Shown here: positions 23,744 through 25,542 of the stretch, one piece after another
Layout: every line of letters starts with the position of its first letter
How positions within the stretch are numbered: position 1 is the first letter of the stretch
Origin: Herbaspirillum frisingense GSF30
GTDB lineage: Bacteria > Pseudomonadota > Gammaproteobacteria > Burkholderiales > Burkholderiaceae_D
Assembly: GCF_000300975.2 (NCBI RefSeq)
Contig: NZ_AEEC02000014.1
Location: forward strand, 1 to 64,000
Direction of reading: 5' to 3'
DNA length: 64,000 nt
Notes under the pieces: generated by a model
Told to the model about the DNA's origin: nothing
The model's input: the letters and a program-made list of their open reading frames with translations, nothing else
Databases searched by the model: none
Made by a program: the position numbers and the translations under genes

Positions 23744-23914
23744 TGACAGAATCTGAACAGAAAACGTGAAGCGGCATGATCGGTCATATCGACCAGCCTC
23801 ATGCGCGCCGTGTCCGCCATCTTACCAAGAACCGGTGCACTACCACCCCTGACACCAGAAGGGATAATCAGTCCTGACAGGGAAAACCCGAACGGAAATG
23901 CGGAAACGACAGAC

Positions 23915-23946
23915 AAAAAAAAGCCCGCGACCAAGAGGTGCGGGCT
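23915..23946 (-). terminator. Strong rho-independent terminator
   Basis: Minus strand AGCCCGC / GCGGGCT with an 11-base loop followed by eight T. It ends either the candidate sRNA or the transcript from the HPP gene and small lipoprotein. Confidence 0.85.
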
Positions 23947-23983
23947 TCAATCCAATTTCTTAAGGAGGAGATTGGAGGAGACA
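23915..23983 (-). ncRNA. Candidate small RNA with an anti-Shine-Dalgarno loop
   Basis: Seen: on the minus strand a -10 box TATAGT (23990-23995), with CAGACT as a weak -35 at 17 bases, precedes about 65 bases that end in a strong terminator (AGCCCGC / GCGGGCT stem, eight T). Between them CCAAT / ATTGG (23952-23975) closes a 14-base loop reading CTCCTCCTTAAGAA, and a second TCCTCC lies just 5' of it. CCTCCTTA equals the 3' end of 16S rRNA, so the loop could pair with ribosome binding sites. Neither strand has an open frame here. Inference: a base-pairing sRNA. Alternatively it is only the end of the HPP operon transcript. Confidence 0.5.
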
Positions 23984-23989
23984 GGTGCA

Positions 23990-24018
23990 ACTATAGCGAC
24001 GGCCCACTGCCGAGTCTG
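23990..24018 (-). promoter_or_regulatory. Candidate promoter of the small RNA
   Basis: TATAGT (23990-23995) with CAGACT (24013-24018) at a 17-base spacing. Only the GAC core of the -35 matches. The rest of the 23744-24091 gap shows no gene to me. Confidence 0.35.
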
Positions 24019-24091
24019 CTTTATTGTGGCAATAGCAGATATTCACCACCCGCATAACTGTTGCAGCACCACCTCATCCACCTCACCCGCG

Positions 24092-24217
24092 TCACGCCAC
24101 CTGAGCAACACTGTGCAGAGCCGACGTCACCGGCCGTGGCGGAGTACCACCCTTGCGCTCACAAGCTTGCACCAGCAACAGCACGCATAGCGCCAGGACC
24201 GTGCCACTCATTCTCAT
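24092..24217 (-). CDS. Small lipoprotein, 41 residues
   Basis: Unrecognised small gene. ATG at 24217 is preceded by GGGAGC at about 7 bases. The product starts MRMSGTVLALCVLLLVQAC, a short basic start, a hydrophobic helix and a cysteine after Val-Gln-Ala that fits a relaxed lipobox. After the cysteine come ERKGGTPPRP and a 14-residue tail. It lies 57 bases downstream of the HPP gene on the same strand and is probably in its operon. It recalls other tiny envelope lipoproteins in size only. Confidence 0.55.
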   Translation of the reverse strand: MRMSGTVLALCVLLLVQACERKGGTPPRPVTSALHSVAQVA

Positions 24218-24274: not shown

Positions 24275-25471
24275 TCAAGCCACGCTGCGCAAGCCCGGCT
24301 CCATGCGGGCGCTGGCCAGGTTCTTTTCGTAGAGCGCAGCAATCATGTCCGATTGCGTCATCATCCCGGCCAGCTTGCCGTCGGCCTGCACAATGGGGAT
24401 CTGGTGCAAGCCATCGGCCATGCGCGGCACCAGCTCCAGCACCGGCGTATCCACCTGCGCCGTGATCACGGGACGGCTCATGATCTGCCCCACCACCTCC
24501 GGCTTGTCCGAATGACTGAACGGCACCCGGCGCAAGAGCTGCCGCAATTGCGCCACCAGTCCGGTATGCACCTCCACCCCGGCATGCTCCAGGAAATCGC
24601 TGCGACTGACGATACCAATCACATGCTGCCCCCGATCCAGTACGGGCATGGCGCGCAAGCGGTGCTGCTGCAACAGCCGCCAGGCCTCATCCAGCCGGGT
24701 GGCAAACTCCACCGCCACCACATCACGGGACATCACCGCCGCACACAGGGTCTGGCCGAAGCGGCGGTGGTAGGCGCGCATCTCAGTCTGCAGAAAGATT
24801 TCCTCCAGATCGTCGCGACCGATGTCGAGCACCTGATTGAAATCTTTCAGCACCTCATCCAGATCTTCATGCGAAAAGCCCAGCCGCGTGATCGGCAGTT
24901 CATCGCGCGTCTGGTGCGGATGCGGTGCCGCGCTGTGCTGCGCATGGGGATAGCGGCGCCCGGTGGCGTTGTTGAAAAACAGTGCCGTCAGCAACAGCAG
25001 CGCCGAATTGAGCAGCACCGGCGACAACACGAAGGCATAGCCCATCTCATGCACCACTGGCCCACCCAGTACGGCGGTCAGCGCCACCGCGCCGCTGGGC
25101 GGATGAATACAGCGCAGCAGGAACATCGCGCCGATGGCCAGCGAGATTGCCAATGCCGCCGCCAGCGCCGGCTCCTGGACCAGCCTCGCGCAGGTCACAC
25201 CGATAAGCGCCGCGCACAGGTTGCCACCGATGATGGACCAGGGCTGGGCCAGCGGACTGGATGGCACCGCGAACAACAGCACCGCCGACGCCCCCATGGG
25301 CGCGATCAGCCAGATGGTGTGGACTTCATGCGGAAGGACTGCATAACTGATCAGGCCGACCAGCAGAATCCCGAACAGACTGCCGGCGCAGGAGCGCATG
25401 CGCTCGAAGCGATCGACATTGGTCTTGGCAGGAATAAAACTTTTGAACCACAGCAAGATAGAATCGGGCAT
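24275..25471 (-). CDS. HPP family membrane protein with two CBS domains
   Basis: 398 residues. The N-terminal half is an HPP domain (PF04982): four or five membrane helices with the naming motif LRCIHPPSGAVALTAVLGGP. Plant chloroplast HPP proteins carry nitrite, but the bacterial substrate is not known. The C-terminal half holds a CBS pair (about residues 240-390; MSRDVVAVEFATRLDEAW and MSRPVITAQVDTPVLEL), likely an adenylate sensor. Start MPDSILLWFK at 25471 has AGGGA about 6 bases before it. A divergent MarR gene with a shared operator candidate suggests its regulation. Confidence 0.85.
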   Translation of the reverse strand: MPDSILLWFKSFIPAKTNVDRFERMRSCAGSLFGILLVGLISYAVLPHEVHTIWLIAPMGASAVLLFAVPSSPLAQPWSIIGGNLCAALIGVTCARLVQEPALAAALAISLAIGAMFLLRCIHPPSGAVALTAVLGGPVVHEMGYAFVLSPVLLNSALLLLTALFFNNATGRRYPHAQHSAAPHPHQTRDELPITRLGFSHEDLDEVLKDFNQVLDIGRDDLEEIFLQTEMRAYHRRFGQTLCAAVMSRDVVAVEFATRLDEAWRLLQQHRLRAMPVLDRGQHVIGIVSRSDFLEHAGVEVHTGLVAQLRQLLRRVPFSHSDKPEVVGQIMSRPVITAQVDTPVLELVPRMADGLHQIPIVQADGKLAGMMTQSDMIAALYEKNLASARMEPGLRSVA

Positions 25472-25542
25472 ATCCGTTCCCTGACAACTTGGGCAGACGA
25501 CAACCTGGGACGCAGCCACGTACCAGGCCAAACCGCAATTAC

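Follow-up and report, generated by a model that had tools for sequence, protein, structure and literature searches.

An RF02278 small RNA of Herbaspirillum frisingense with a conserved upstream box and a candidate LysR-type regulator

Background

A short minus-strand segment in the genome of Herbaspirillum frisingense GSF30 raises the question of whether it encodes a small RNA (sRNA), which messenger RNAs such an RNA would pair with and what would switch it on. The segment lies in a stretch of 64,000 nucleotides (the window) on contig C80 of the 5.41 Mb genome. The original prediction, made from the letters alone, described a promoter element, a hairpin and a terminator, and proposed an RNA that pairs with ribosome-binding sites. 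Here we survey the gene, its relatives and the DNA ahead of it, and discuss how it may be controlled.

We hold it very likely that the segment encodes a trans-acting RF02278 sRNA which pairs at ribosome-binding sites, mainly of transporter mRNAs, and which is under the control of a box-bound LysR-type activator. In this scheme an RNA of about 65-72 nt would be transcribed from its own promoter, with termination at an intrinsic terminator. The 5' end of the RNA, UGUCUCCUCC, would pair with ribosome-binding sites like GGAGGAGACA, and the loop of the first hairpin, CUCCUCCUU, would pair with them less strictly. Translation, chiefly that of transporter mRNAs, would be blocked by this pairing, and Hfq would probably take part. 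The box upstream of the -10 hexamer would be bound by one LysR-type regulator, whose gene lies next to another copy of the box; this regulator would switch on the window sRNA along with two sister sRNAs, two small-protein units ending in RF02278 RNAs and a peptide unit.

The RNA gene and its structure

The following features of the gene were recorded, all on the minus strand.

23915 to 23983, minus strand: RF02278 small RNA gene (Betaproteobacteria toxic sRNA, or double-hairpin RNA), 69 nt, by Rfam score and fold z-score
23951 to 23976, minus strand: first hairpin, by minimum-energy fold; three of five tested pairs change on both sides among 34 members
23915 to 23948, minus strand: intrinsic terminator hairpin with U8 tail, by sequence and fold; the six core pairs tested are paired in 100% of cells, and three of them change on both sides
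23990 to 23995, minus strand: -10 hexamer TATAGT, found as TATAGT in 29 of 30 aligned loci and as TAAAGT in L070

The TATAGT hexamer, the CCAAT/ATTGG hairpin with its loop, and the GC-rich hairpin with eight T running to 23915 are all present on the minus strand as first described. The RF02278 covariance model of Rfam was matched over its full length (1-64) at 23915-23983 with 57.1 bits, the gathering score being 50, and the Rfam scan of the whole window gave three matches, namely two tRNAs and this RNA. Weak matches of other Rfam families at the same site (Pseudomon-1/ErsA, suhB/mmgR, anti-hemB and others) were rejected, as they lie far under their own cut-offs and share similar hairpin-plus-terminator shapes. 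The fold of the RNA has a z-score of -4.96 and none of 200 shuffles was equally stable. Covariation was analyzed on 34 aligned members of the 64 distinct sRNA sequences extracted by script: over 11 pairs in the two helices 99.5% of 374 cells were paired and six of the 11 pairs change on both sides, and sliding the partners as a control lowered the pairing to 22-45%. The present data carry the family membership, the structure and the conservation of the RNA, its -10 and its upstream box directly: there are two hairpins, of which the second is an intrinsic terminator, with covariation in both helices, a C/U-rich 5' arm complementary to ribosome-binding sites, and an occurrence in Betaproteobacteria that is often multicopy.

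The -35 element is poor (GCAGAC at 24019-24014 with an 18-nt spacer, read by eye), and a simple scan for promoters and terminators picked up neither the promoter nor the terminator of the sRNA. The statement that no open frame fits on either strand was not literally true, since a mechanical 129-aa frame on the plus strand (23801-24190) crosses the RNA; one-base indels between orthologues, for example in L063, shift this frame.

The genome holds 14 RF02278 matches at E<=1, four of them over the cut-off. Matches at E<=1 also appear in 11 of 14 control genomes, never over the cut-off, and little weight can therefore be given to the weakest of the 14 matches here. At E<=0.001 the family was found in 107 of 116 genomes of the Oxalobacteraceae (in 102 of them over the cut-off, single genomes having as many as 21 matches), in 99 of 150 sampled genomes of the order and in none of the 14 controls; order genomes outside the Oxalobacteraceae usually have one or two matches each, with exceptions of up to six. 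Within the genus, blastn matches to the sRNA occur in all 34 genomes, some of them being paralogues. At 28 loci (L044-L071) the alignment with the window takes in the upstream block as well, and L072 and L073 are more divergent. The original prediction was to fall if loop and stem proved unconserved while the terminator was conserved; this is not the case, as conservation of the 5' site, the stem and the -10 equals or exceeds that of the terminator stem, though the loop varies. By sequence evidence the sRNA gene is real and ordinary in kind. RF02278 is already described as a family, and the gene is a further copy of it in another genome.

The shared upstream box

Ahead of the -10 lies one further element.

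24016 to 24056, minus strand: box TAT-N11-ATAWC-N-G-N-TAT-N9-AAA-NN-RG, a proposed LysR-type activator site, by recurrence and spacing

The last TAT of the box ends 36 nt before the -10 of the window sRNA. In the alignment of orthologues the block ahead of the -10 shows much stronger conservation than the sequence lying further out, and a script found that the block also precedes paralogues and copies in other genera: 50 of 68 upstream sequences have the strict form and 18 do not. In 49 of the 50 the box starts 58 or 59 nt before TGTCTCC, and in the remaining one, a copy in L026, the regular expression matched at -66. Among the 18 others at least five carry a variant (the second copies in L025 and L042, and those in L027, L029 and L071), and L069, on the plus strand, is not an sRNA. 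The pattern was derived from such sites, here and in other genera, so the sites used to build it match by construction. A shorter pattern with up to one mismatch was too loose, giving 16 sites in this genome against 11 in the reversed control, and AAANNRG was for that reason appended after the sites had been inspected. A palindrome, TATTGCCACAATA, was also considered as the regulator site and was set aside, the constant element across orthologues and paralogues being the longer TAT-N11-ATAWC-NGNTAT box.

With up to one mismatch the box occurs in all 34 Herbaspirillum genomes, 3-7 times in each and mostly six times, and not at all in the reversed control; among the matches listed, the sites in the other Herbaspirillum genomes look orthologous. 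The six sites in this genome precede the window sRNA, the sRNAs on contigs C35 and C62, two small-protein genes on C81, which are followed by the RF02278 RNAs L005 and L006, and a frame of 26 aa on C74. Counted by eye, the distance of 36 nt from the last TAT to a -10-like hexamer is kept at all six. Across the Oxalobacteraceae the box is present in 79 of 116 genomes with 214 sites, and the reversed control gave a single site in each of three genomes (G057, G085 and G112). A further check covered 29 of 34 RF02278 loci (all but L288, L295, L296, L298 and L303). One of the 29, L279, is an Oxalobacteraceae member and has the box with two mismatches; the box was absent at up to two mismatches from the 28 other-family loci examined (two of which overlap).

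The region C81:76500-81800 (L201) contains two tandem units, each made of the box, a small protein (77 and 105 aa) and an RF02278 RNA. The two RNAs, at C81:79162-79223 and 79970-80032, score 46.5 and 44.7 bits and are under the cut-off. The small proteins end in ...LNRMA...QPN.AAELR..A.R, and no Pfam family was found over its cut-off in either of them; proteins of about 105 aa like these follow the box, by eye, in 12 of the regulator loci of other genera described below. At C74:1711-1751 (minus strand, L202) the box and a -10 are followed by a hydrophobic frame of 26 aa (MNIVADILPY...), which may represent a small membrane peptide or a further RNA.

The candidate regulator

Divergent from the box at C81:78652 lies a gene for a LysR-type transcriptional regulator (LTTR) of 319 aa, which has the LysR helix-turn-helix domain (PF00126) and the substrate-binding domain (PF03466) of that class. 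Its best NCBIfam matches are to BsrA and to the LeuO-like regulators, yet at 206 and 162 bits they are far under the equivalog cut-offs of 480 and 262; as both cut-offs are missed, the protein was not filed under either name. A match to the LTTR at E<=1e-70 occurs in 95 of the 116 family genomes, two of them at under 60% identity (G010 and G051), which by this divergence are perhaps not orthologous.

The best 30 of 107 LTTR matches, five of them from Herbaspirillum itself, were scanned for a divergent box beside the gene, which was found in 24 loci at up to two mismatches and in 14 at up to one, and in none in the reversed control. Over the family genomes the box (up to one mismatch) is present in 75 of 95 LTTR-positive and in 4 of 21 LTTR-negative genomes (p 4e-7, not corrected for kinship); counted by hand per genus the figures are 30 of 34 against 2 of 10 (p 1e-4). 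One family genome of 1.7 Mb, G102, has the LTTR at 75% identity, and neither the box nor RF02278 at E<=0.001 was found in it, which counts against a link of the LTTR with the box.

We infer from this that the LTTR beside the C81 box is a candidate activator of the box-led genes. The half-site pattern of the box is LTTR-like and does not name one particular LTTR, and a different regulator could act on the box while the RNA is as described here. We judge this unlikely, though it is the most serious of the alternatives: the binding of the box by the LTTR is itself inferred, the box is missing at up to one mismatch from 20 of the 95 LTTR-positive genomes, which speaks against the link, and 4 of the 21 LTTR-negative genomes have one; against it, the box recurs divergently beside the LTTR at 24 of the best 30 loci, and 17 of the 21 LTTR-negative genomes are without the box.

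Sass and colleagues noted a common motif upstream of three double-hairpin RNAs of Burkholderia cenocepacia, and stated that the factors governing sRNA accumulation in that species were yet unknown. In a limited search no link between LysR-type regulators and RF02278 was found in the literature, and as far as searched the shared box in the Oxalobacteraceae family and the candidate LysR-type regulator are unreported. The useful addition made here is on the side of control: with the box, its fixed phase to the -10, the limited number of its sites and a specific candidate for the regulator, the question of regulation becomes testable for Herbaspirillum and its family.

A second promoter class

Copies of RF02278 that lack the box (more than three mismatches) often carry another motif. 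TGCRNYGCASMA, which we take to be a PhaR-type motif, is found in the 250 nt upstream of 28 out of 42 such copies, a set that includes near-identical relatives, and in none of the 42 in the reversed control; among 56 box-bearing copies it was found in one. L001 (C90:36039-36103 of this genome) is among the box-less copies with the motif. The site TG[N]TGC[N]3GCAA has been footprinted for PhbF, the regulator of polyhydroxybutyrate (PHB) in H. seropedicae (PMC3206438), and TGCRNYGCASMA has in common with it the TGC and GCA triplets, not the whole site. This likeness of sequence suggests that the box-less copies may be controlled by the PHB regulator. The LTTR loci have 27 distinct box promoters, and in 20 of these a TGC-N3-GCA core also lies behind the box; of 44 sRNA promoters with the box none has the core there, both reversed controls being 0. 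We read the PhbF-type core as a hint of a link between RF02278 RNAs and carbon storage.

A wider proposal can be offered only tentatively, and we place it somewhat below an even chance: a single LTTR may run an Oxalobacteraceae sRNA regulon of three independently transcribed sRNAs, the window's among them, two small-protein genes with their RNAs and a 26-aa peptide unit. If that were true, a switch responding to carbon storage or nutrients would act through the RNAs called 'toxic' as its output arm and turn off uptake genes.

Pairing arms and predicted targets

Two stretches of the RNA can pair with ribosome-binding sites.

23974 to 23983, minus strand: Site 1, the 5' arm UGUCUCCUCC, complementary to GGAGGAGACA ribosome-binding sites, by conservation, openness and genome sites
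23959 to 23970, minus strand: Site 2, the loop CUCCUCCUUAAG (CTCCTCCTTAAG in DNA), which shares CCUCCUU with the 16S rRNA 3' end

With up to one mismatch, the DNA forms of both arms, TGTCTCCTCC for Site 1 and CTCCTCCTTAAG for the loop, occur once each in the window, the shuffle means being 0.13 and 0.11. Site 1 (23983-23974) does not change in the 30 aligned same-genus loci L044-L073, and its first nine bases, UGUCUCCUC, are identical in all 34 aligned family members. By partition-function probabilities its first seven bases are unpaired and its last three lie inside the first hairpin, so the second TCCTCC that had been placed outside the helix is open in the first seven bases of TGTCTCCTCC and paired in the last three. 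The loop is variable between orthologues, with CTC lost in L045, L051 and L056, and two extra pairs possible inside it would leave about 8 nt fully open; in the window copy it is longer than in the Rfam consensus of RF02278 (CUCCUCCUUAAGAA).

The loop had been described as a copy of the 3' end of 16S rRNA. In this genome 16S rRNA ends in CCTCCTTTCT (GGATCACCTCCTTTCT), and therefore the loop shares with it CCTCCTT (7 nt) alone and not CCTCCTTA, which is presumably the E. coli form of the end. In pairing with GGAGGAGACA, Site 1 reaches -19.4 kcal/mol against -9.8 for the 16S 3' end, opening costs being left out. The loop was also considered as the main pairing arm and was rejected, as its complement (AAGGAGGAGA-N1-9-ATG) occurs before ATG once in the genome, against seven times for Site 1. 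The 5' end UGUCUCCUCC, more conserved than the loop, is probably the main pairing arm.

The seven sites of the form GGAGGAGACA-N0-8-ATG (none in the reversed control), which are short, point to a set of predicted targets. By Pfam, five of the genes encode transport proteins (two DctP proteins and one each of an NMT1-type protein, a branched-chain amino-acid permease and a low-affinity iron permease), a sixth encodes a GNAT acetyltransferase, and no Pfam family was assigned to the seventh. The looser form GGAGGAG-N3-11-ATG has 102 sites against 24 in the reversed control, and seven of the 102 continue with ACA where about 1.6 are expected (p about 0.001 on a flat model); this excess is suggestive only, because ACA may belong to a common form of the ribosome-binding site.

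Relatives of the RF02278 type are reported to be expressed and to repress mRNAs at ribosome-binding sites (PMC5688073, PMC11722255), and expression, Hfq dependence and repression by pairing are carried over to the window RNA by analogy with them. The window RNA resembles the double-hairpin RNAs of B. cenocepacia in its two hairpins, its C/U-rich unpaired stretches and its intrinsic terminator, and also in occurring in several copies per genome, mostly as short transcripts of their own as those RNAs are described; of these, ncS03, ncS05, ncS27 and ncS62 are expressed (PMC5688073, PMC4603805). Its 5' arm and first loop are related to those of S17 of Bordetella pertussis, an RNA whose report describes Hfq dependence, repression by pairing at the ribosome-binding site and many transporter-related targets (PMC11722255). 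According to that report, a direct target is repressed via Site 1, as supported by compensatory mutants, with Site 3 helping; two of the predicted targets that were tried gave no response; and 70 of the genes raised on deletion of S17 have complementarity near the ribosome-binding site, with 32 genes or operons being transporter-related (PMC11722255). NcS27 is reported in a review to affect genes of phenylalanine/tyrosine catabolism and carbohydrate transport. The transporter class of the targets predicted here agrees, by analogy, with the class reported for S17 and NcS27. The idea of a base-pairing sRNA aimed at ribosome-binding sites thus finds support, and it is what members of RF02278 are reported to be.

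S17 differs from the window RNA in its origin, being cut by RNase E from a 190-nt precursor (PMC11722255), whereas the window RNA has its -10 just ahead of the mature 5' end; with the -10 in that position, processing would presumably not be needed.

An improbable alternative is that the RNA acts as a decoy, its copy of the anti-Shine-Dalgarno sequence sequestering Shine-Dalgarno sequences indiscriminately and slowing growth globally with no specific targets. The CCTCCTT shared with 16S rRNA would fit this, as would the name 'toxic', which papers on relatives trace to growth inhibition in E. coli, and the slower growth on overexpression of ncS27 (PMC5688073, PMC4603805). The most conserved arm, however, is UGUCUCCUCC, whose UGUCU part is absent from the 16S end; repression by S17 needs Site 1 to pair with a particular mRNA, and 91 or 92 genes were raised when S17 was deleted (PMC11722255); and overexpression of S17 in E. 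coli BL21 was not clearly toxic (PMC11722255).

Genomic neighbourhood and a catalogued orthologue

The sRNA gene lies between two protein genes of the same strand.

24275 to 25531, minus strand: HPP transmembrane and CBS domain protein, upstream neighbour, a mechanical open reading frame, by Pfam PF04982 and PF00571
23525 to 23743, minus strand: DUF1289 protein, downstream neighbour, by Pfam PF06945

Of the best 80 of 368 loci found in named genomes with the HPP-CBS neighbour, 17 have a match to the sRNA region on the downstream side of that gene, all of them titled Herbaspirillum. Between the HPP-CBS gene and the sRNA there is a short frame (24092-24217, minus strand) with a lipobox-like LVQAC, in which no Pfam match was found at E<=0.1. 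That the RNA is merely the terminator or 3' untranslated region of the HPP-CBS or the small lipoprotein-like transcript, with its C/U-rich stretch arising by chance, is hardly tenable: it does lie on the same strand downstream of both frames with a terminator at its end, and two sister copies follow small-protein genes with no box directly ahead, but a conserved -10 and a box, set at a fixed distance from each other, stand directly ahead of it, the DNA further upstream is unconserved and the covariation of its first hairpin is above the controls.

In H. seropedicae four RF02278 RNAs have been catalogued, among them Hsnc059 with 93 nt, a GC content of 49.46% and RF02278 at 25-93 (PMC7011215). 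Of 14 loci computed, four (L049, L050, L061 and L075) have an orthologous stretch that likewise gives 93 nt, 49.46% GC and a 69-nt core, whereas the GC content of the window's own stretch is 51.61%. Hsnc059 is probably the orthologue of the window sRNA, an identification that rests on length, GC content and coordinates and not on sequence comparison, and the window sRNA has thus probably already been described in the form of an orthologue. In the available text of that study northern blots are named for five other RNAs and not for Hsnc059 (PMC7011215).

In four loci (L016, L018, L025 and L026) RF02278 RNAs stand as tandem pairs about 200 nt apart, and every RNA is preceded by a separate box or by a variant form of the box.
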